Shown: in pieces, positions 10,314-44,020 of the stretch
How the letters are laid out: every line of letters starts with the position of its first letter
Position numbering within the stretch: the stretch's first letter is position 1
Source: Bacteroidota bacterium
GTDB taxonomy: Bacteria; Bacteroidota; Bacteroidia; Chitinophagales; Chitinophagaceae
Length of the DNA stretch: 44,036 nt
Reading direction: 5' to 3'
Assembly (NCBI GenBank): GCA_013285595.1
Contig: JABDHF010000016.1
Span: 1-44,036, forward strand
Position numbers and translations under genes: made by a program
Notes under the pieces: model-generated
What the model was told of the DNA's origin: nothing
What the model saw: only the letters and a program-made list of their open reading frames with translations
The model's database searches: none

Positions 10314-10382
10314 GAACCGGCAACTAAGAATATTATCAAATTCCCTAAAATAAAACTACAATAATAAGCATCTAATAATTAC

Positions 10383-10390
10383 TAACTTTG
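10383..10390 (+). promoter_or_regulatory. Candidate -7 box for the GH3 gene
   Basis: TAACTTTG fits TAnnTTTG and lies 20 bases before the ATG at 10411. A clear -33 TTG is not seen at the usual distance. Confidence 0.45.
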
Positions 10391-10410
10391 GAATTGAATT
10401 ATTGTAGTGA

Positions 10411-11907
10411 ATGAAAATTAAATCTTTCCTGGCAAAGCCTTATGCATCCATCATACACTCCAGGGTGCGCAAGGGTATGGTTACTGCGGTAGCAGATCAG
10501 CAGGCCATCTTGCAGCAGTTCGTTAAGCTGGGTGGGCGCACGCAATTCGGGATAGAACACGGGTTTGTGAATATTAAGACCTATGAAGATTTTAAAAAGG
10601 CGGTGCCAATAAGGGACTACGAAGCATTTGCACCCTACATAGAAAAAATAAAAAAAGGCGGCCAGAATATTTTGTGGAAAGGCAAGCCTATATACTTTGC
10701 AAAAACATCGGGCACCACTAGCGGCGTAAAATATATACCTATAACTACAGAATCTATATCTAACCACATAAATGGTGCCCGCGATGCACTGCTCTGCTAT
10801 ATGGCAGAGAGTGGCAATACGGCGTTTGCCGATGGCAGGATGATCTTTCTATCGGGCTCGCCAGAGCTGGAGCGTGTAGGTGGTATACCTACCGGGCGCC
10901 TCAGTGGCATAGTGAATCACTACATTCCACGCTACCTCAGGGGTAACCAGCTACCATCATACGAAACTAACTGCATAGAAGACTGGGAAGAGAAGCTGGA
11001 TAAGATAGTGAACGAGACAATGAAAGAAAACATGACGCTGATAAGTGGCATACCGCCATGGATGCAAATGTATTTCGACTGGCTGAGTGAGCGTAACGAA
11101 GGGAAGAAGATCAAAGAACTTTTTCCGGAGCTAAAAGTGATAGTGCATGGCGGGGTGAACTTTGAACCATACAAAGCAAGGCTGATGGATAGCCTGGGTG
11201 GTGATGTAGACATGATAGAGACCTTCCCGGCATCTGAAGGTTTTTTTGCGTTCCAGGATGTGCCAGGGCAAGAGGGCTTGTTATTGAATACAAACTCAGG
11301 CATCTTCTACGAGTTTGTTCCTGCAAATGAAATTGCTAACGAAAATCCCACGCGCCTTTCGCTGGCAGAGGTGAAGACAGGTGAGCAATACGCACTGATA
11401 GTAAGCACTAACGCCGGCCTGTGGGCCTACAACATAGGCGACACCGTGCGCTTTGTAAGCACCAACCCATACAGACTGGTAGTTACAGGCCGTACCAAAC
11501 ATTATATCTCCGCGTTTGGCGAGCATGTGATAGGCGAGGAAGTAGAGTATGCAATGCTGCAGGCATCGCGCGACTTTAATGTACACATCACTGAGTTCAC
11601 CATAGCGCCAGCTATACAGGTGAGCGAAGGATTACCGTATCACGAATGGTTCATAGAATTTGAAGTGCCGCCTACGGATATGGACGCCTTTGCAGCAGCA
11701 ATAGATGGCTACCTGGCCGGTAAAAATATTTATTACAACGACCTCATAACAGGCCATATTCTGCAGACACTGAAAATAAGGCCTATGAAAAAGAATGCCT
11801 TTATAGAATACATGAAGTCTATAGGCAGGCTTGGAGGGCAAAATAAAGTGCCGCGCCTGGGCAACGACCGCAAAGTGGCCGATGCTTTAACTCACTGGAT
11901 AGCTTAA
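10411..11907 (+). CDS. GH3 family acyl-adenylate enzyme (auxin-responsive GH3-like)
   Basis: A 498-residue member of the GH3 branch of the ANL adenylating superfamily, which in plants conjugates amino acids to jasmonate or auxin via an acyl-AMP. The ATP loop is FAKTSGTTSGVKYIPIT with TSGTTSG at residues 99-105. A second nucleotide motif follows at METFPASEGFFAF... (around 270-280, TFPASEG), and YNIGDTVRFVS with the conserved Asp sits near 345-355. The C-terminal lid contains FGEHVIGEEVEYA. Length is shorter than plant GH3 (about 600) but usual for bacterial ones. Bacterial substrates are generally not known; the neighbourhood gives no biosynthetic hint. Family call is confident, reaction specifics are not. 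Confidence 0.9.
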   Translation: MKIKSFLAKPYASIIHSRVRKGMVTAVADQQAILQQFVKLGGRTQFGIEHGFVNIKTYEDFKKAVPIRDYEAFAPYIEKIKKGGQNILWKGKPIYFAKTSGTTSGVKYIPITTESISNHINGARDALLCYMAESGNTAFADGRMIFLSGSPELERVGGIPTGRLSGIVNHYIPRYLRGNQLPSYETNCIEDWEEKLDKIVNETMKENMTLISGIPPWMQMYFDWLSERNEGKKIKELFPELKVIVHGGVNFEPYKARLMDSLGGDVDMIETFPASEGFFAFQDVPGQEGLLLNTNSGIFYEFVPANEIANENPTRLSLAEVKTGEQYALIVSTNAGLWAYNIGDTVRFVSTNPYRLVVTGRTKHYISAFGEHVIGEEVEYAMLQASRDFNVHITEFTIAPAIQVSEGLPYHEWFIEFEVPPTDMDAFAAAIDGYLAGKNIYYNDLITGHILQTLKIRPMKKNAFIEYMKSIGRLGGQNKVPRLGNDRKVADALTHWIA

Positions 11908-32499: not shown

Positions 32500-34902
32500 T
32501 TAATTCCTCAACGGCTTCCCCGTAGTCAATATACTCTGCAATCTTTCCAGCGTTTTCTTCTGCCCGCAGAGGCTCAGAAATGCTTCGCGCTCCAGGTCCA
32601 GCAGGTATTGCTCACTCACTAAGCTTTCGGCAGTGAGGTCACCGCCACACATTACGTGCGCCAGCTTTTCAGCTATCAGTTTATCATAGTCGGAGATGTA
32701 GTTGCCACGCCACATGCCATGTATGCCGGAGAGCAATCCGCCCATGCCGCCACGGCCCTGCACTTTAATATCATTCCGTGCCACGGGTTGTGTGTAGCCT
32801 CGTTCTGCCATCATCAGCACATTGCGCTTGGCATCGGCTATGCGCCTGTCGGGATTAATAGAGATATGGTCGTAGCCTTTCCTGAACACAAAATTATCAA
32901 ACGCCTCATGCGCAGAGGTAGATACCTTTGCCGTGCCTATATTGATAAATAGTTGCTGCAGATAGTTAACCTCAATGTCCTCTTTTATGTTACGGTCACC
33001 GGCGCGCAGGGCCATTTCTTTGCTGCCACCGCCGCCGGGTATCAGGCCTACGCCTACTTCTACCAGGCCTATATAAGTTTCTGCTGCCGCCTGTACAGCA
33101 TCGGCATGCAGGCACATTTCGCAGCCACCACCCAGTGTTAATCCATGTGGCGCTACTATTACCGGTATACTGCTATACCTGAGCCGCATGGTAGTTTGCT
33201 GAAACTGGCGCACGGCCATATCCAGCTCATCAAAATCCTGCTCGGCAGCAAACATGAATATCAAACCAACATTTGCCCCTGCGCTGAAGTTAGCGCCACC
33301 ATTAGCTATCACCAGCCCTTTATATTTTTCCTCTGCTATTGCTACAGACTTTTGTACGCCTTCCAGCACCTCGCCACCTACAGTATTCATTTTGGTATTC
33401 CAGCGTAGCGCTACCACATCGTCGCCTATATCATATAGTTTACACGCACTATTTTTCCATACTACCTTTTCGTCCAGGTGCTCCAGTAATATAAATGCGC
33501 CCATGCCGGGTATAGGCTGGTATATTTGTGTACGGATGTCGTAATACTTCCGTTGGCCATTCTCTGTTTTATAGAAGGTGGTAAACCCTTTTTCCAGCAT
33601 CTGCGCTACCCATGGCGCGGCTTCAAAGCCGTCGGCCTTCATTTGCTCCAGCACCTTCTGCACACCCAGTGCATCCCAGCTTTCAAAAGCCCCTATTTCC
33701 CAGCCAAAGCCTGCTTTGAGGCCATCGTCTATTTTATACAGTTCGTCAGCTATTTCCGGTATGCGGTGCGATACATACGCAAACAGCATGTGGTGGAAAA
33801 GCCTATAAAACTCACCGGCCTTATCGGTGCCGGCATACAATACTTTGAGTCGTTGTGTAAGGTCATCCACCGGTTTAGCAGCATCAATAGTTGCAAACTT
33901 AGTTTTGACCTTAGGGCCATACTCCATGGTCTCCAGATTAAGCGTCAGTATGTCCGACTTGCCTTTTTCATCCTTAATTTTTTTATAAAAGCCTTGCCCC
34001 GTCTTATCTCCCAGCCATTTATTTTCCACCATCTTCTCGAGGAATGGAGGTAGTTTAAAGATCTCTATAGCCTCATCATCAGTCACATTCGCAGGCAGGT
34101 CTTTAGCTACATGTACCAGCGTATCAAGCCCTACCACATCGCCCGTGCGGAAGGTTGCAGACTTGGGCCTGCCGAGTACCGGGCCGGTAAGTGTGTCCAC
34201 CTCATCGACATTAAGGCCCAGTTGCTGCATGGCTTTGAACACCGCCATAAAGCCAAACACACCAACACGATTTGCTATAAACGCAGGCGTGTCTTTGCAC
34301 AACACCGTTGTCTTCCCCAGGAACCTGTCGCCATAATCCATCAGGAAATCAATAACCTCAGGTTTCGTTTTAGGATCGGGTATTATTTCGAGTAAACGGA
34401 GGTAGCGCGGCGGGTTGAAAAAGTGAGTACCACAAAAGTTTTGCTGAAAATCTTCACTTCTACCTTCACTCATCAGGTGTATAGGTATGCCCGATGTGTT
34501 AGTAGTAACCAGTGTCCCCGGCTTGCGGTATTTCTCTACCTGGTCAAATATCTTTTGCTTTATATCCAGCCGCTCTACGACCACTTCTATTATCCAGTCT
34601 GCATCTTTTATCTTAGGCAGGTCGTCATCTATGTTGCCGGTCGTTATGTGGCTCACCACAGCCTTGGTGTATACTGCCGATGGTTTGCTTTTCAGGGTTG
34701 CCTGCATGGCATCGTTCACTATCCGGTTGCGTACCTGCTTGCTGTCCAGTGTCAGGCCTTTGGCCATTTCTGCATCATTAAGAGCAGGCGGCACAATATC
34801 GAGCAGCAATACCTGCACGCCAATGCCTGCAAAATGACACGCAATGCGCGAGCCCATAACACCAGACCCTATAACAGCAACTTTACGGATAGTTCTTTTC
34901 AT
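32500..34902 (-). CDS. 3-hydroxyacyl-CoA dehydrogenase / enoyl-CoA hydratase fusion
   Basis: An 800-residue beta-oxidation enzyme; I start at MKRTIRKVAVIGSGVMG (34902) rather than the longer frame. The N-terminal NAD domain has VIGSGVMGSRIACHFAG (GxGxxG), then the dehydrogenase C-domains with FCGTHFFNPPRYLRLLEIIP and GQGFYKK. The crotonase part is at about residues 480-690, with oxyanion-type motifs ANGGANFSAGANVGLI and GGGCEMCLHADAV, and IGLVEVGVGLIPGGGG carrying the catalytic Glu region. This order (dehydrogenase first) is the reverse of E. coli FadB/FadJ and is common in Bacteroidota and other phyla. It oxidises fatty acyl-CoA in two consecutive steps. The thiolase partner is not in the window. 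Confidence 0.95.
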   Translation of the reverse strand: MKRTIRKVAVIGSGVMGSRIACHFAGIGVQVLLLDIVPPALNDAEMAKGLTLDSKQVRNRIVNDAMQATLKSKPSAVYTKAVVSHITTGNIDDDLPKIKDADWIIEVVVERLDIKQKIFDQVEKYRKPGTLVTTNTSGIPIHLMSEGRSEDFQQNFCGTHFFNPPRYLRLLEIIPDPKTKPEVIDFLMDYGDRFLGKTTVLCKDTPAFIANRVGVFGFMAVFKAMQQLGLNVDEVDTLTGPVLGRPKSATFRTGDVVGLDTLVHVAKDLPANVTDDEAIEIFKLPPFLEKMVENKWLGDKTGQGFYKKIKDEKGKSDILTLNLETMEYGPKVKTKFATIDAAKPVDDLTQRLKVLYAGTDKAGEFYRLFHHMLFAYVSHRIPEIADELYKIDDGLKAGFGWEIGAFESWDALGVQKVLEQMKADGFEAAPWVAQMLEKGFTTFYKTENGQRKYYDIRTQIYQPIPGMGAFILLEHLDEKVVWKNSACKLYDIGDDVVALRWNTKMNTVGGEVLEGVQKSVAIAEEKYKGLVIANGGANFSAGANVGLIFMFAAEQDFDELDMAVRQFQQTTMRLRYSSIPVIVAPHGLTLGGGCEMCLHADAVQAAAETYIGLVEVGVGLIPGGGGSKEMALRAGDRNIKEDIEVNYLQQLFINIGTAKVSTSAHEAFDNFVFRKGYDHISINPDRRIADAKRNVLMMAERGYTQPVARNDIKVQGRGGMGGLLSGIHGMWRGNYISDYDKLIAEKLAHVMCGGDLTAESLVSEQYLLDLEREAFLSLCGQKKTLERLQSILTTGKPLRN

Positions 34903-34993
34903 ACAAAACAACTTTAGCCACACAATTTATTGAAAAATAAACCAGCAATCTTTATCAGCCGATAAATCTTAACAATAAACACACTGGGCAAAA

Positions 34994-37198: not shown

Positions 37199-37565
37199 GG
37201 GGCCGACTGGTTTTGACAGCATAGGGCAGGGTAAGTGTAAGCATGTCGTGCGTTGGATAATTAGCACGTAAATCTGAATACCCAAAATCTATACGGCGAA
37301 TATTCTTACGCCATGGCTGCCTAATCAGAGATTAGACACCCTTTATAGCCGCCGGGAAGGCTGCCAGTTGCCGTCCCCGCCGCCGAATCAACAAATAACC
37401 GGATAGGCCAGTGTTCGTTGCGCGCACAGGATGAAAATCAAAGCAAATAAGGAATGAGTTGGTTTGTTCTCCCCCGGCCCGTTCCCGACAATTAATGAAG
37501 AAATAAACATGTAGAAAGCTTATTGGGCATGTGTTTGGACGCGGGTTCGACTCCCGCCGGCTCCA
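37199..37565 (+). ncRNA. ssrA: tmRNA (transfer-messenger RNA)
   Basis: 367 bases from GGGGCCGACTGG to the discriminator A after GGCTCC. The 5' GGGGCC and 3' GGCTCC form the tRNA-like acceptor stem, and GCGGGTTCGACTCCCGC is the T arm. The tag frame is 37295-37324, reading GEYSYAMAA then TAA, with the resume codon GGC. Bases AAACATGTAG and the pseudoknot-rich GCCGCCGGGAAGG segments lie between. The CCA end is not encoded (CTT follows), so it must be added by nucleotidyltransferase. Rescues stalled ribosomes with SmpB (not in window); tagged products go to ClpXP. It is directly followed by a defence operon. Confidence 0.95.
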
Positions 37566-37581
37566 CTTAGTTGAGTATCAA

Positions 37582-37630
37582 AACATGAAAAAAGCCTTGA
37601 AATCGTTGATTTCAAGGCTTTTTTCATGTT
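37582..37630 (+). terminator. 23-pair perfect hairpin after ssrA
   Basis: Arms of 23 bases (37582-37604 and 37608-37630) pair without mismatch around loop GTT; the inner stem holds GAAATC/GATTTC and an AAAAAAG/CTTTTTT tract. This is the ssrA terminator, with the T run inside the stem. It is flanked by a nine-base direct repeat GTATCAAAA at 37575-37583 and 37637-37645. Confidence 0.8.
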
Positions 37631-37718: not shown

Positions 37719-37726
37719 TATATTTG
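37719..37726 (+). promoter_or_regulatory. Candidate -7 box for the jet operon
   Basis: TATATTTG, a perfect TAnnTTTG, 11 bases before ATG 37738. A T-rich stretch at 37694-37700 lies at the right distance for the -33 half. The expected start of transcription falls only a few bases before the ATG, which supports 37738 as jetA start. Confidence 0.5.
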
Positions 37727-37737
37727 CCGCCCGCTTT

Positions 37738-38937
37738 ATGAAGACTTTCTCCTCAATACAACAGTTGCTGACCACGCTTACCCGTGAGCAAAAACTGTTG
37801 AGTGAACTGTTTGAAAAAAGAAAGATCCTTTCTTTTAACTACGACTATGCGCTGGAACTGGTAGACTACGATGCTGATAAGATAACCGCACTTATCGACT
37901 ACTCAGTAATAAGGCAAAACGGAAGCAACCTGGAGCTGGATGACTTGTTTCTACAGTTTTTTGAACAGGTGATGGAGGTGAATGAGGAGATCAATGTTTC
38001 TTATATCAATGAGCATATTCAAAACATAAAGCAAAGCATCATTTACTACTTGCAGGAAAACAATGAGACGCGGAAGTATGGCTACCTGCGCCAGGTGAAG
38101 CAGGCTCTGCGAAAAATAGGTGCCATAGCCCTGCGAAATGTTGTAGACCTAAACAGGAATATTGATAATACTTTTAAGAACGAACCAAACTACAAGATAA
38201 AGAAAACAAAGCTGGAGCACCTGGATGAGAAGCGAAATACGATCTACGCGCTCATCAACCATACAGATCATTTGGTTTCGGGAGAAGAGGAGCAAACGTT
38301 TTTTAAGGTGGCGTCTGATGAAGAGCTGAACCGGATCATCATCCTGCTAAAACTGCAGCTAAATGAATGCAGACATAATCTTATAGATATACAAAAGCAG
38401 ATAATAGACTACCTGAACCGGATAAAATACCAGAGTGGTGTAATAGAAAAGTTAAGACAGATAAAATACCTTAAAGACCAGTTTGAACTGAGAAGCAAAA
38501 CAAGTATCAGAGAGCTATTGGCTGATAACAAAGCGGTTATCTTCGAGTCTAATCCTGTTTACCCGCTCAATATTTCGTTAGATCAACTGCAAACAGATGA
38601 CGAAGCGAAAACAGTTATTGAGAAGGTGGCAAAAAGAATACGAACCAGCGTAAAGGTAACACAACCACTTGCAGGCAGCATTTCTGACGAATACCTGGAA
38701 ACGCAGGTGCAGGAAGAAATACAGATAAACCTCGATGAGGTAAAAAACAGTTTCCTTGCCGGTGGGAATAATCTCTTTGATTTCATCTGCGCCTACGACT
38801 TTGGTAAGGAAGTAAGCTTTGACGATTGCGTAACTATCTACTGCCAGATGATCTCCCAGTTTGATACTTTATTTAAAATTACCGATGTCTATAACAATAA
38901 GCAGGATGTGGAATTCGCTGTGGTTTATCCTAAATAA
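37738..38937 (+). CDS. jetA: Wadjet JetA (MukF/MksF-like kleisin subunit)
   Basis: A 399-residue mainly helical protein. The frame is open back into ssrA, so I start at MKTFSSIQQLLTTLTREQKL (37738), just after a promoter box. It has no catalytic motif: winged-helix-like N-terminal part, then long helices with coiled-coil pattern at about 190-290 (IKKTKLEHLDEKRNTIYALI, LNECRHNLIDIQKQIIDYLN), and a C-terminal domain ending DVYNNKQDVEFAVVYPK. Identification comes from position: first of four in the order JetA-JetB-JetC-JetD with the SMC ATPase and the Toprim protein. Its job in the family is to bridge the ATPase heads and hold the MukE-like subunit. Sequence-only assignment is moderate; operon context makes it strong. 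Confidence 0.8.
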   Translation: MKTFSSIQQLLTTLTREQKLLSELFEKRKILSFNYDYALELVDYDADKITALIDYSVIRQNGSNLELDDLFLQFFEQVMEVNEEINVSYINEHIQNIKQSIIYYLQENNETRKYGYLRQVKQALRKIGAIALRNVVDLNRNIDNTFKNEPNYKIKKTKLEHLDEKRNTIYALINHTDHLVSGEEEQTFFKVASDEELNRIIILLKLQLNECRHNLIDIQKQIIDYLNRIKYQSGVIEKLRQIKYLKDQFELRSKTSIRELLADNKAVIFESNPVYPLNISLDQLQTDDEAKTVIEKVAKRIRTSVKVTQPLAGSISDEYLETQVQEEIQINLDEVKNSFLAGGNNLFDFICAYDFGKEVSFDDCVTIYCQMISQFDTLFKITDVYNNKQDVEFAVVYPK

Positions 38938-38944
38938 TAAGTAA

Positions 38945-39514
38945 ATGAACGTACCCAAACATACTTCCGATATTTTTGAACTGCTAAGTAAGGGGCAATT
39001 CATTTGCTCTAACAGTGGTAAGGACTCTGTGCGGAAGCTATATAATATAATCGACGAGAATTTTGATGACCTGCACGACTATTTCAGCTCTATAAATTTT
39101 ATATTGGAAAGAGGCGATGAATACTTCATGTTTACGAGGGAAGAAAACAAGGCCGACCTGGAGCGCAAGCTGGAAGCAGCTTTTAAGTGGATAGACATAC
39201 TTGACTTTTTTAAGACAGTTGATCATTCATTTAGCGCAGGTTACCGTTTCACCCCGTCTGATATCCTGGTAAAGCTAACTGTAGATGTGAACATGAAGAA
39301 CAAATTAGAAGGCCTGAAAAAGTATTCCGGCGGTAAAGAAAAGCATGCCGAAATACTAGACAAAGTGCTGGACCAGCTGCGCCGCGATAATTTTATAGAG
39401 CTTGAAAACGAAATAACAAACAGCTATAAAACACTTGCGTCGTTTCACTACCTGGAACGACTGATATTATCCATAAACATTGCTGAATCCGTGAAAAATG
39501 AGATACCTGAATAG
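38945..39514 (+). CDS. jetB: Wadjet JetB (MukE/MksE-like, DUF4194 type)
   Basis: A 189-residue protein with the winged-helix character of the MukE/MksE family: SDIFELLSKGQFICSNSGKD (helix and an early basic loop), then FILERGDEYFMFTREENKAD, and a C-terminal helix FHYLERLILSINIAESVKNE. It starts 7 bases after jetA and its stop lies 17 bases inside the start of jetC. In the known complex JetB binds JetA and DNA and controls ring closure. The call is based on size, order and general fold; no catalytic motif is expected. Confidence 0.78.
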   Translation: MNVPKHTSDIFELLSKGQFICSNSGKDSVRKLYNIIDENFDDLHDYFSSINFILERGDEYFMFTREENKADLERKLEAAFKWIDILDFFKTVDHSFSAGYRFTPSDILVKLTVDVNMKNKLEGLKKYSGGKEKHAEILDKVLDQLRRDNFIELENEITNSYKTLASFHYLERLILSINIAESVKNEIPE

Positions 39515-42500
39515 AGTTTTTTTTATTAACAGCGCCAATGTGAAGTATGCTGAAGTAGCTATTGATGGCAATGTACATTTTATAGGCACACAGGGAGTAG
39601 GTAAAAGCACATTGCTGCGCGCCATTCTTTTCTTTTATAATGCAGATAAATTAAAGCTGGGCATAGAAAAAGGCAAGAAAACATTCGACGAATATTACTT
39701 CCCTTTTGCCAACTCTTATCTTATCTACGAAGTAGTTAAAGACTCCGGGCCATATTGTATCATGGCGTTTAAGGCGCAGGGGCGTGTTTGCTTCAGGTTC
39801 ATCAACAGCGCCTATAACCAGGAAAACTTTATCAGCGATGATGGTAAGGTGCGCACATGGGAAAGTATAAGAGAAACTTTTGGTAAGAAGACAAACTATA
39901 CCCGTAAGATAGACCGCTACGAAGAATACCGCGATATTCTCTACGGTAATAATATGGGCCTGGATAAAGAGTTTAGAAAGTATGCACTTATAGAAAGCCG
40001 GCAGTATCAGAATATACCAAGAACGATACAGAACGTATTTCTTAACTCAAAGCTGGACGCTGAATTTATTAAGCAGACCATTATTATGTCGCTCAATGAA
40101 GAGGACGTAAAGATTGAGCTTGAAAAATACGCCCTGCACCTAAAAGATTTTGACGTTCAGCTGGCGGATATCAACAAGTGGACAGAGGTAAACAAATCGG
40201 GCGAGATACCCGTGCGCAAGATGGCAGAGAACATAGCCAAAATACATGCGGCCATACAATCGCTCAACAGGGAAAAGCAGGAAACAGCAATCCAGCTTTT
40301 CCAGTCATACGATGTGGCAACTAAAGAACTGCCACAGGTAGAGAAAAAGCACGACCAGCGCCTGAGGCACCGCCAGGTGGCACAGGAAAAGTCTAACGAC
40401 CTGAAAGGGAAATTCCAGGCCAAAAGGGAAGATGTACAGAAACAGATAAACATACTGGATAACGACCTGAAAAGGATAAAAAGCAAAAGCGAATATTACG
40501 ATGGCATCAACATCAGCGCCATCATTCAAAGAGTAGATAAGAAAGATGATAACGAAGCCATGCGCGACAGGCTGCTCGCCGAAAAAGTACTACTCAATGC
40601 AAAATTTACCGAAATAAATAGCCGCTACCAGGCGCTGATACAGCAGCAGCAAAATGCATTTGCAGGGTTTGATAATGCACACCAGGCCCGTAGGAATAAA
40701 TTGAGAGAAGAGTTCCTGGTGTTTAAGAGCGATACAAACGAACAATACAACCGTGCATTCGCAGAAATAAGAAAGCAGCAGCAATCCGCCCTTGAAGTTG
40801 CCCGCAATGGTATAGCTCAGAAGAAAGATAGCATACACGAGCTAAAGCTCAAAAAACAAAAAGGACAGCTGCAGCGCTATTTTGAACAAGACATAGAAGC
40901 AGCGAAGTCAGAGATCGCTGTATTGCAGCAAAAAATAAAAAGCGCTGGCATAGAGATAGCAGATTTTAAAAAACAAGTGGAAACCCTGCAAAAGCAATGG
41001 GAGCTTGACCAGGAAAAAAGTGCCGCAGTATATGATAGGAAAGTAGAGAAAATGTGGGAAGATGGCAAGCAATACGCCGTAAATGTGACGGCTATTGATG
41101 AAAAATTGCAAAAGAATAAAGACTCACTGTATGGGTGGCTAAACGCAAATGTGCCGGGCTGGGAAAATAGTATAGGTAAAGTATTGGATGAAGAACAGGT
41201 ATTGTTTCACTCGGGCCTCGCGCCGCAATGGACCGAAGGCATAAATGATACTTTGTACGGCTTAAAAATAGATCTGAACGAGATCAATAAAACAGTAAAG
41301 ACCGTTGCAGATTATGAACGGGAAAAAGGAGAGTGGCTGCAAAAGGCAGATGTGAACCGGGCTAATACTAACAAGCTGATAGAGGAAAAGAACGAAGAAG
41401 CAGACAAACTAAAGACTCGTTACCAGGGGAAAATAAAAGAAATAAATAACAACAGGCGGCAGCTGGAATTCGAGCTGCAAAGATCGAACGGGCAATTGCA
41501 GGCAAATGAGGTTAAACGCGCAGACCTGGTAAGAAAAGCCGCGGAAGAGCAAGAACAGTTTTTGCAGCAGGTAAGCCGGGAAATTGAAGCAGCATCAGAA
41601 GAATTAATAAATGAAGAGAAAAACCTGGATGGCATAGAAGCCGGCATCCAGAAGCAAATAGATAATAAAGAGAAAGAAAAAAACAAGAAAATAAAAGCAG
41701 AAGATCAGAGGATAAAAGAATTGATAGCGACTTTTGACCAGGAACTGCAAGCGAGAAAACAAGAAACAGAAAACCGCATAGAGGAAATAAAGCAGCAGCA
41801 AACCAAAGATCTGAAAGTAGAAGGCGCTGATGTACTAAGGCTTTCCGGCATTGAAAAGGAGCTTTTGATTATCAGCAAAGAATTGAATTTTATAAATGAC
41901 AACCGGGATATTGTAGCAGAATACAATAAAGACAAACGAGAGCTCTTTGACCAGGCAGATGCTTTTAAAACAGATAAGCGGCTGAAAGAAAACCTGCTTG
42001 AAAATGAGCAGGAAAAATACAATCTGCAAAAGCAAAAGATAAACCAGGAAGTAGAACAGCTTACCGTTGCCATTAACGAACTAAACGCCCAGATAACAAG
42101 CATTAGTGAAGGTATAAACGCCTTCGAAAGCTTTAAAAAGGCAGACCACTATAGGCAGATTGCCGAGTACGAAGGGCAACAATCTACCGGTACGGGGAAT
42201 ACAGCCAACCTGAAGTTATTGATCGAGACATTGAATGGTAAGATGTATACCATACAGGAGCGTTATAACGATCTGCAAACGGCCATCAACAAATTTACTG
42301 GCAACTTCGACTCAAAAAACATCTTTAATTTTAAATCGAATCTCGTAGAGAAAGAAGAGTTTATAGAGTTTGCAGAAATGCTGTATGAATTCCTGGAAGA
42401 AAATAAGATAATGCAGTATGAAAAGCGGGTGAACGAGCGCTTTGCAACCCTCATACGCCAGATAGGCAAAGAAACTACAGAGCTTACCTCGAAAGGTGGC

Positions 42501-43172
42501 GAGATACAAAAAGTGATTGCCGAGATAAACCGCGACTTTGAGGAGCGTAATTTTGCTGGTGTTATCAAAAGCATCAGGCTGCAACTGTCTGGTAGCCAAA
42601 ACGCGATAGTGAACCTATTGCAGGAAATAAAGAAATTCAACGACCAGAATAGCATGGGGCTTGGCGCTGTAGACCTCTTCTCGTCTGGCGATAATGAAGG
42701 GCAAAACAAAAAGGCAATTTCTTTGCTAAAAGAATTTGCAAAAGAAATTAATGCGAGAAAGGAGAAAGAGATCAGCCTGCCCGATTCATTCGAATTGCAG
42801 TTCAGGATTGTAGAAAATGAAAATGATAGCGGCTGGGTAGAAAAACTAACTAATGTAGGCTCAGAGGGCACTGATATACTGGTGAAAGCAATGATCAATA
42901 TTATGCTGCTCAATGTGTTTAAAGACAGCGCATCTAAACGTTTTAAAGACTTCAGGCTGCACTGCATGATGGATGAAATAGGTAAACTGCACCCTAATAA
43001 CGTGAAGGGCATACTAAAATTTGCCAACGATAGGAATATACTTTTGATCAACAGCTCGCCTACATCTTATAATGCTACTGATTACCGGTATACTTACCTG
43101 CTGTCAAAAGACAGTAAGCATGTGACCACTGTGAAGCGATTAATAAAAAAAGGAGCTGAAGTATTGGTATGA
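39498..43172 (+). CDS. jetC: Wadjet JetC (SMC/MukB-like ATPase)
   Basis: A 1224-residue SMC-type ATPase. Walker A is GTQGVGKST at residues 30-38 (Lys36), near the N-terminus as in all SMC-like proteins. Then come long heptad-rich coiled coils about 230-520 and 620-900, separated by a hinge-like globular segment near 527-611 (LYGWLNANVPGWENSIGKVL). At the C-terminal head is the signature-like SEGT (1122-1125) and Walker B CMMDEIGKLHP with Asp1159 and Glu1160. The ATP cycle drives loop extrusion along DNA, used to recognise small circular plasmids. It overlaps jetB by 17 bases and jetD by 4. All motifs intact, so probably active. MksB of the MksBEFG condensin is the same family. Confidence 0.9.
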   Translation: MRYLNRVFFINSANVKYAEVAIDGNVHFIGTQGVGKSTLLRAILFFYNADKLKLGIEKGKKTFDEYYFPFANSYLIYEVVKDSGPYCIMAFKAQGRVCFRFINSAYNQENFISDDGKVRTWESIRETFGKKTNYTRKIDRYEEYRDILYGNNMGLDKEFRKYALIESRQYQNIPRTIQNVFLNSKLDAEFIKQTIIMSLNEEDVKIELEKYALHLKDFDVQLADINKWTEVNKSGEIPVRKMAENIAKIHAAIQSLNREKQETAIQLFQSYDVATKELPQVEKKHDQRLRHRQVAQEKSNDLKGKFQAKREDVQKQINILDNDLKRIKSKSEYYDGINISAIIQRVDKKDDNEAMRDRLLAEKVLLNAKFTEINSRYQALIQQQQNAFAGFDNAHQARRNKLREEFLVFKSDTNEQYNRAFAEIRKQQQSALEVARNGIAQKKDSIHELKLKKQKGQLQRYFEQDIEAAKSEIAVLQQKIKSAGIEIADFKKQVETLQKQWELDQEKSAAVYDRKVEKMWEDGKQYAVNVTAIDEKLQKNKDSLYGWLNANVPGWENSIGKVLDEEQVLFHSGLAPQWTEGINDTLYGLKIDLNEINKTVKTVADYEREKGEWLQKADVNRANTNKLIEEKNEEADKLKTRYQGKIKEINNNRRQLEFELQRSNGQLQANEVKRADLVRKAAEEQEQFLQQVSREIEAASEELINEEKNLDGIEAGIQKQIDNKEKEKNKKIKAEDQRIKELIATFDQELQARKQETENRIEEIKQQQTKDLKVEGADVLRLSGIEKELLIISKELNFINDNRDIVAEYNKDKRELFDQADAFKTDKRLKENLLENEQEKYNLQKQKINQEVEQLTVAINELNAQITSISEGINAFESFKKADHYRQIAEYEGQQSTGTGNTANLKLLIETLNGKMYTIQERYNDLQTAINKFTGNFDSKNIFNFKSNLVEKEEFIEFAEMLYEFLEENKIMQYEKRVNERFATLIRQIGKETTELTSKGGEIQKVIAEINRDFEERNFAGVIKSIRLQLSGSQNAIVNLLQEIKKFNDQNSMGLGAVDLFSSGDNEGQNKKAISLLKEFAKEINARKEKEISLPDSFELQFRIVENENDSGWVEKLTNVGSEGTDILVKAMINIMLLNVFKDSASKRFKDFRLHCMMDEIGKLHPNNVKGILKFANDRNILLINSSPTSYNATDYRYTYLLSKDSKHVTTVKRLIKKGAEVLV

Positions 43173-44020
43173 TCTCACGTTCTATTTCAGAAAAGTTGCT
43201 ACAGCTTGCAGCGGGGGAAAACCTTCCCGCAAGCCAGTTGCAACATGAAATTATACGGGAGCTTATCGGCGATGGCATCATTCTGGGGCGTGTATTGGGC
43301 CGCACAAAAAGCACTTTGTATATTCAAGATACAGTTGCGCTTAGCAACTGGTTGTTCAATAGGTTTTCCATCCGGGACCTCGCTGAATATGTCAATACGC
43401 TTAAGAATGAAGAAGCTACCCGCGCAGATCTCATACATGCCGGCAACGACTCTAAATTAGCGGCCAGGCGTACTTTCAAAGGTTTTTTAATAAACAGTTA
43501 TGTCCGCATTGAAGCCTTTCTTAATGGCAACCCTTTTACATTTATTCCCGTCGCTGGTACCTTTCAGTTTATTTACGATTTCGAAAGCTTTATACCTGCA
43601 CCGGATATAGTTATCGTGGGTATAGAGAATGCAGAGAATTTCCGTTGGGTAGAAAAGCTGCAATACCTGTTTAAAGATGTTCATCCACTTTTTGTTTGCC
43701 GTTATCCACAAGGTCAGGGGAAGGACCTGCTGAAATGGTTGTATTCTGTTCCAAATCGTTACCTTCATTTTGGCGATTATGACTTTGCTGGTATTAACAT
43801 ATACCAGCAGGAGTATAAAAAGCACTTGGGGGAGCAGGCAACTTTCTTTATCCCCGCAAATATAGAACACCTGATAGAAGAGTACGGAAACCGGAAACTC
43901 TATGATCAGCAGCAATTGAATACCGTAGACTTTCCTGAGGATGGTATACAACGCCTAGTATCGCTGCTTCATAAATACAAAAAAGGGCTGGAGCAGGAAG
44001 CTTTAATAGGGCCGAAATAA
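43169..44020 (+). CDS. jetD: Wadjet JetD (Toprim nuclease, compact form)
   Basis: A 283-residue protein with C-terminal Toprim domain (DUF2220 type). IVGIENAEN has the catalytic Glu153 in the VEN-x-E-like position, and HFGDYDFAGINIY carries Asp203 and Asp205 (GDxD, canonical GDIDTHG in other JetD). An N-terminal helical region with ARRTFKGFLINSYVRIEAFL precedes the Toprim. The start ATGA overlaps the jetC stop. In known systems JetD is the metal-dependent nuclease that cuts the plasmid trapped by JetABC. Usual JetD of type I has about 380-400 residues with an added DUF3322 N-part, so this one is shorter. Complete at the TAA 44018-44020. Confidence 0.85.
   Translation: MISRSISEKLLQLAAGENLPASQLQHEIIRELIGDGIILGRVLGRTKSTLYIQDTVALSNWLFNRFSIRDLAEYVNTLKNEEATRADLIHAGNDSKLAARRTFKGFLINSYVRIEAFLNGNPFTFIPVAGTFQFIYDFESFIPAPDIVIVGIENAENFRWVEKLQYLFKDVHPLFVCRYPQGQGKDLLKWLYSVPNRYLHFGDYDFAGINIYQQEYKKHLGEQATFFIPANIEHLIEEYGNRKLYDQQQLNTVDFPEDGIQRLVSLLHKYKKGLEQEALIGPK

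Follow-up and report, generated by a model that had tools for sequence, protein, structure and literature searches.

Analysis of a 44,036-nucleotide (nt) stretch of contig JABDHF010000016.1 (assembly GCA_013285595.1) from a Bacteroidota bacterium of the Chitinophagaceae, referred to here in its full length as the window, revealed a four-gene operon at 37738-44020 of the forward strand that probably (at roughly 0.75, in our estimate) encodes a JetABCD/MksBEFG-type, Wadjet-like plasmid-restriction complex of a lineage distinct from type I. Gene content, order and conservation, the SMC motifs, the KITE family membership, the kleisin-like fold of the first protein, the Toprim fold of the last and its invariant candidate metal-site residues directly support this assignment. 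In type I systems, JetABC works as a dimeric motor, circles of less than about 50-100 kb are cut, and the cut is linked to bending of the DNA (excerpts of PMC10586767, PMC10123090 and PMC13040014). Loop extrusion, sensing of DNA size and shape, and cleavage of bent DNA would, by extension from these studies, also apply to the proteins of the window: the loop-extruding motor that travels along DNA would be a dimeric assembly of JetA (kleisin), JetB (KITE) and JetC (SMC ATPase); once a small circle had been fully extruded, the motors would stall on a bent segment; and a JetD Toprim dimer would then introduce a double-strand cut, so that small plasmids would be lost. The four genes and their principal features are as follows.

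37738-38937, forward strand: jetA/mksF-like kleisin (A), 399 amino acids (aa), assigned by predicted fold
38945-39514, forward strand: jetB/mksE-like KITE subunit (B), 189 aa
39498-43172, forward strand: jetC/mksB-like SMC ATPase (C), 1224 aa
39585-39611, forward strand: Walker A of C, GTQGVGKST, residues 30-38, from sequence and alignment
41136-41261, forward strand: conserved block W547-G588 of C, a putative hinge
42861-42872, forward strand: ABC signature-like SEGT of C, residues 1122-1125, from alignment
42972-42977, forward strand: Walker B DE of C, residues 1159-1160, from alignment
43169-44020, forward strand: jetD/mksG-like Toprim nuclease (D), 283 aa, with a short N-terminal part
43625-43627, forward strand: Glu153 of D, putative metal-site acid
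43775-43783, forward strand: Asp203-x-Asp205 of D
43994-43999, forward strand: Gln276-Glu277 of D, paired by alignment with the C-terminal LEQE of type I JetD

A profile search of genome contigs with the JetC alignment returned 188 relatives, of which 80 were kept, all labelled Bacteroidota except three (L026, L080 and L086). Twelve loci were removed as duplicate, derived or spurious and six as members of a sister lineage described below; the remaining 86 loci with C, window included, made up the clade considered here. Genes A, B, C and D follow one another in this order on one strand in 71 of them, an arrangement far beyond chance; among these complete loci, the exact 17-nt overlap of B and C is kept in 57 and the 4-nt overlap of C and D in 35. 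Seven of the 15 incomplete loci are truncated by contig ends (L010, L025, L030, L053, L079, L087 and L089). The protein alignments were thinned to 43 of 70 sequences for A, 63 of 72 for D after an 82% cut, and 44 of the 47 post-cut sequences for B, three with long N-terminal ends being removed. The mechanical open reading frame (ORF) of A begins earlier, at GTG 37531; the start at ATG 37738 agrees with the homologues, M1 being present in 43/43 rows of the alignment (A2).

The KITE subunit (MukE/MksE-like) and the SMC ATPase were identified by Pfam. B matched the MksE family PF21980 with 155.7 bits (E 1.8e-45), well over the cut-off of 27 bits, and so is already covered by a model that also matches in E. 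coli; its score against DUF4194, the type I JetB family (14.5 bits), stayed below the cut-off of 32.7. C matched DUF3584 (PF12128, cut-off 31 bits) with 187.4 bits (E 4e-55) over residues 18-1189. In an alignment of 24 JetC rows selected from the full-length sequences, G30, T31, G35, K36 and S37 of Walker A, S1122, G1124 and T1125 of the signature and D1159 and E1160 of Walker B are invariant; the window's protein reads 'VGSEGT' and 'HCMMDE' at the latter two sites, and the signature of the clade reads S-E/D-G-T. W547, W555, G560 and G588 are likewise invariant in the 24 rows, and the mid-protein block that they delimit, which may represent the hinge, is aligned in the sister lineage.

For A, the assignment as a kleisin comes from its fold. 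An AlphaFold2 model built from the 43-row alignment (predicted local distance difference test score [pLDDT] 79.5, predicted template-modelling score [pTM] 0.44) retrieved MukF chains (9gm7, 7nz2, 3euh twice and 3rpu) and then 8q72 as its six best PDB folds, with E-values from 4.6e-5 (9gm7_C, MukF) down to 3.4e-3 (8q72_E, JetA of E. coli JetABCD, at rank 6).

The Toprim nuclease was recognized by profile, by fold and by its residues. D matched DUF7281 (PF23947) with 35.2 bits (cut-off 27, E 1.2e-8) and a PADLOC JetD1 profile at 7.2e-6; 63/63 members of the D alignment matched a JetD1 profile at E ≤ 0.1 (best 1.9e-9). Its structural model (pLDDT 90.6) retrieved topo VI-A (5.3e-5), Spo11 and, at rank 6, JetD of P. 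aeruginosa (7til, 5.9e-3). E153, R178, H200, D203, D205, Q276 and E277 are invariant in 72/72 full-length homologues, and when the D proteins of the clade and the sister lineage are pooled and aligned with those of type I (E 1.4e-7 over 128 columns), the IEN, DxD and LEQE blocks pair up. In MksG of C. glutamicum, E236 and D279 bind metal, a role as nucleophiles has been proposed for E349 and E351, and the conserved R156 and K166 are candidates for DNA contact (excerpt of PMC10123090). R85 and K96 of D, also conserved in 72/72, could by their spacing correspond to R156 and K166.

At 283 aa, D falls 80-130 aa short of the type I proteins used for comparison (363-415 aa), and neither PF09983 (JetD_C) nor DUF3322 matched it at E ≤ 1; PF09983 was also not found in the window's own genome assembly, which is 59.6% complete. 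The short JetD suggests, as a prediction, that its inhibition or recruitment is unlike that of type I, and its reduced size, about 285 aa, makes it suitable for asking which parts inhibition and activation need. Elsewhere in the phylum, PF09983 was matched in 39/296 Bacteroidota genomes, mostly of one genus (g139, family f17) and with at most four matches per genome; three of the matches fall inside 17 kb of a single contig (G325:C33).

These results bear out most of a preliminary description of the locus made from its letters, which had placed a kleisin-like, a MukE-like, an SMC and a Toprim gene in this order with gaps of +7, -17 and -4, read Walker A, SEGT and Walker B in the SMC protein and Glu153 and the DxD at 203/205 in the Toprim protein, and called the operon Wadjet-like. 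The ORF coordinates agree, the residues proved conserved as given above, and the Wadjet-like character is upheld by Pfam for B and C, fold for A, profile and fold for D, and conservation for the operon; its proposal of a functional plasmid-restriction system stands as a prediction. Of the checks that it had proposed, the structure prediction of D gave the model described above, and the search with JetA-D profiles recovered D (JetD1) and, weakly, C (JetC1) while leaving A and B unmatched. It had also named outcomes that would speak against it, namely a better fit of C to RecN, SbcC or a plain MukB, or A and B outside every kleisin or MukE profile; none of these occurred, except that A is without a kleisin profile match.

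Several observations nevertheless weigh against a Wadjet-like assignment. No kleisin profile of Pfam or PADLOC matched any of the 43 members of the A alignment, and the fold TM-scores are low both for A against MukF and JetA (about 0.2-0.3) and for D against topo VI-A, Spo11 and JetD (0.27-0.42). Because of these low scores the overall shape of A is not fixed, and it is the identity of the fold matches that carries the argument. The comparison of B with type I B is weak (E 3.2e-4), the clade D alone aligned poorly with type I D (5.3e-4 or 0.0022), and the clade JetC matched type I JetC at 5.1e-5 over 159 coiled-coil columns (hhalign) or, in another comparison, over 39 columns around Walker A. 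Sequence searches of the PDB, with JetC alone and with profiles of A, B and D, returned no chain of an SMC, kleisin, KITE or JetD protein, so that A, B and D match no solved Wadjet chain by sequence. Finally, eight loci carry the motor gene without D in the available sequence.

The D-less loci bear on a different explanation, in which ABC is mainly a chromosome-organising condensin of the MksBEF kind and D an accessory topoisomerase-like or repair nuclease. Six of them hold A, B and C (L037, L051, L057, L070, L143 and L154), one B and C (L032) and one C alone (L062), and a tblastn search with 72 D proteins (E ≤ 0.01) found no D remnant in these eight or in L079; since D is missing there, the motor can serve some function that involves no cleavage. 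The best folds of A are moreover MukF rather than JetA, L143 adjoins housekeeping genes, and MksBEF of P. aeruginosa contributes to chromosome organisation (excerpt of PMC10586767). We nonetheless consider a condensin unlikely for the window: its genome also encodes a canonical housekeeping SMC (1019 bits), JetC is patchy within the genus (16/35 genomes, own included; 11/25 among those of good quality), the 4-nt C-D overlap recurs, and the acids of D are invariant. The comparison with MukBEF is similarly divided. MukF and the MksE profile link the E. coli system to A and B, whereas the clade JetC reached MukB only at 0.0068 over 194 columns, and no Toprim gene was seen beside E. coli mukFEB in the 13 kb covered; the absence of a Toprim partner that marks MukBEF and MksBEF contrasts with the clade, where D follows C in the 71 complete loci.

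For the D-less members themselves the question stands differently. The motor-only ABC loci L057, L070 and L143 belong to Bacteroidales, and the two Bacteroidetes studied in PMC10197239 are described as having no homologues of known condensins. Motor-only Bacteroidales members are possible, unproven condensin candidates, and surveys of the phylum suggest that they are rare. A rearranged motor-only locus was seen in a member of the Chitinophagaceae (L037:9451-14940), in which A comes after B and C and is inverted relative to them.

A restriction complex of the Wadjet kind accordingly remains our preferred reading of the window, and its relationship to the known types was examined by profile comparison. 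Type I and MksBEFG systems (C. glutamicum MksG, E. coli and P. aeruginosa JetABCD) resemble the operon in their kleisin-KITE-SMC-Toprim content in A-B-C-D order, in the Toprim blocks and in the folds of JetA and JetD. Judged by these profiles, the operon is not Wadjet type I. The PADLOC and NCBIfam Wadjet profiles did not match A or B of the window; PADLOC JetA models, type I JetA1 (DUF3375/DUF5716) included, matched 0/43 members of A; no single JetB1 model matched more than 3 of the 44 members of B (best E 0.0019); and direct comparison of A with type I JetA gave no similarity (E 0.24). For C, with PADLOC's own calling thresholds left unapplied, one JetC1 model matched 24/24 clade proteins weakly (best 5.9e-7), the window's at 1.9e-5 in two stretches, the better covering residues 1-53; genuine type I JetC score at 1e-205 or lower.

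Two type I loci gave somewhat different alignments with the clade JetC, at 1.2e-6 over 227 C-terminal columns (L148) and 1.2e-4 over 135 columns (L147). Against the rest of the type I JetC, both proteins gave E-values near 1e-23 over some 1000 columns; a type III-like nature of these two loci was considered and rejected, PADLOC typing their scanned A, C and D as type I. JetC2 profiles matched 3/3 scanned type I JetC (best 7e-14 to 1.6e-7 per protein; 3.5e-11 for L125) and 0/24 clade JetC at E ≤ 0.1, and because of this pattern the distance between the clade and type I seems, by JetC profiles, to exceed that between types I and II.

Types II and III were set against the clade through profiles alone. 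They share a Toprim partner with it, and D of the window matched JetD3 weakly (0.0029), as did 36/63 members of the D alignment (best 3.4e-5), this being the sole type III profile to match. Of the type II set (DUF2397, DUF2398, JetC2 and JetD2), none matched A, B or C, and the JetD2 and JetB2 models each matched 2/63 D. More generally, no type II or III JetA, JetB or JetC model matched a window protein at E ≤ 1, nor did any NCBIfam Wadjet model. The PADLOC models seen were JetB2, JetC2, JetD2 and JetD3; the collection presumably also holds JetA2/3, JetB3 and JetC3. A survey for DUF2397, the type II JetA, was uninformative, with 0/247 matches and none in the controls.

The closest relatives found outside the clade form a sister lineage carried on proteobacterial plasmids. 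Its JetC aligns with that of the clade from end to end (4.2e-66 over 1120 columns, hhalign), its D over 273 columns (6e-13), its B over 171 columns (4.7e-8) and its A over 243 columns (3.9e-4, probability 36). DUF3584 was found in 1/1 C and DUF7281 in 3/3 D scanned (68 to 107 bits), and its JetC is closer to that of type I (9.3e-11 over 393 columns) than the clade's is. The sister systems share 17-35% identity among themselves and are annotated as ATP-binding or hypothetical proteins, DUF2399 being named in one (L142). Their order is C-B-A-D on plasmids of Vibrio (L140), Acinetobacter (L142), Aromatoleum (L144) and Rhodoferax (L146) and on an IncC plasmid (L141); Salinibacter (L145, left out of the sister alignments) has A-B-C-D, as in the clade. 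On the IncC plasmid, Tn7-like transposition genes precede the system, and an IS256-like element interrupts its SMC gene. The preliminary description had seen in the operon a system diverged from the best-studied type I members, which understates the distance, given unmatched A and B, a weakly matched C and a nearest lineage that is unannotated and on plasmids.

The location of this lineage on large plasmids speaks to some extent for another reading, an SMC-based defence directed at phage DNA or another element rather than at small plasmids, comparable to the use of SMC proteins in Lamassu. Weak LmuB matches (E 0.14 for the window; four LmuB models, each in 1/24 JetC) point the same way. The partners of C are, however, a kleisin and a KITE protein and not LmuA or LmuC, the nuclease is JetD-like, and D had no match in a phage collection at E 1e-5, all of which makes defence of this kind improbable, and distinctly more so than a condensin. 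A search of viral contigs found no JetD.

Returning to the Wadjet-like complex, the clade and its plasmid sisters could together constitute a Wadjet type outside I-III, a proposal that we regard as evenly poised. It would be set apart by a DUF3584 motor with its own putative hinge block, the S-E/D-G-T signature (in the clade) and a minimal JetD without the type I N-terminal extension; its nuclease would be detachable, six or more gains or losses, as counted on a provisional JetC tree, having yielded motor-only loci, some of them in Bacteroidales and maybe condensins. We found no description of the lineage in the literature searched; the founding papers (Petrushenko 2011, Deep 2022 and Doron 2018) lay outside that search and may mention the branch. 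Because the profiles used in plasmid-defence surveys match it weakly or not at all, the lineage is easily overlooked, and counts of it in Bacteroidota and on large plasmids may be too low.

On the 83-row JetC tree, absence of D requires seven changes, six of them forced by well-supported branches; this provisional count comes from a quick build with long branches flagged, L079 dropped, and four sister rows set to 'D' by hand from annotation, the clade D profile having found only that of L140. The D-less loci are scattered over the tree and no more clustered than shuffled labels (106-111 of 500 shuffles were as low). L051, without D, is the sister of L054, with D, at 100% support. Motor-only MksBEF has been proposed to arise from JetABCD through nuclease loss (excerpt of PMC10586767), and these two near neighbours permit a direct test of that proposal. 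The tree interleaves families and phyla, with Nitrospirae and Melioribacter sequences adjoining; very short JetC branches separate the two loci so labelled (L086 and L026), suggesting recent transfer or a binning artefact.

JetC was found in 6/147 genomes of the family, own included, one of the six (G045; 29% over 127 residues, E 7e-4) being regarded as an artefact. The operon is thus an accessory, patchy system beside a resident SMC. In surveys that each covered 296 genomes of the phylum, DUF7281 was found in one, the window's own; DUF3584 in nine, own alone above the cut-off; and alignment A13 in three, own and two at 1.9e-4 and 3.7e-4. The weak matches were taken as coiled-coil artefacts. 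The survey samples overlap, and carriers are rare or were missed, given the 188 relatives of the contig search.

Individual loci depart from the compact layout. About 8 kb of passenger genes lie between B and C in two Bacteroidia (L041:1644-10001, where A is truncated by the start of the available stretch, and L049:2009-10001), and a single unrelated gene lies between A and B in L082:1779-2765 and L040:1839-2210, which by eye we take to be RhuM-like and GxxExxY-like, respectively. In other relatives C (L066) or A (L046) is in two pieces. Such broken relatives, together with a contig end (44036) just 16 nt past D, would fit a decayed or inactive Wadjet remnant; with four intact ORFs and all motifs and invariant residues in place, we consider decay of the window's operon highly improbable.

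Nothing 3' of D is visible because the contig stops there. On the 5' side, the window holds the following features.

37199-37568, forward strand: transfer-messenger RNA (tmRNA, ssrA), Rfam RF00023, 127.6 bits, an upstream neighbour outside the system
37583-37629, forward strand: inverted repeat with T-run, read directly from the sequence, a likely ssrA terminator
37719-37726, forward strand: TATATTTG box shortly 5' of the A start, read directly, a putative promoter element

The ssrA gene stands where the preliminary description had placed it, beside the operon; ARAGORN reported no tmRNA in the window, though Rfam scores it clearly. TATATTTG is similar to the -7 promoter motif of Bacteroidota, TAnnTTTG. 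The adjacency to ssrA looks incidental. No tmRNA was found in the 85 other clade loci (blastn, E 0.01, which can miss a diverged tmRNA) or in an Rfam scan of seven near relatives, and the idea of the tmRNA as an integration site was dropped on these counts. The genes 3' of ssrA were not alike in three relatives compared, and a tRNA lies within about 300 nt of the operon solely in L020 and L054 (ARAGORN, 55 loci, the window's tmRNA being missed).

The remainder of the window resembles ordinary chromosome, with genes elsewhere in it that we take, from translations read by eye, to be thyA, mreB, carB and fadB-like. The fadB-like gene (32500-34923) lies about 3 kb upstream of A, and a copy with 77% identity lies 3' of D in Taibaiella (L018:14681-16580), hinting at a common chromosomal neighbourhood. 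In a near relative (L014), an RNase P RNA (10365-10721) lies about 1 kb downstream of D.

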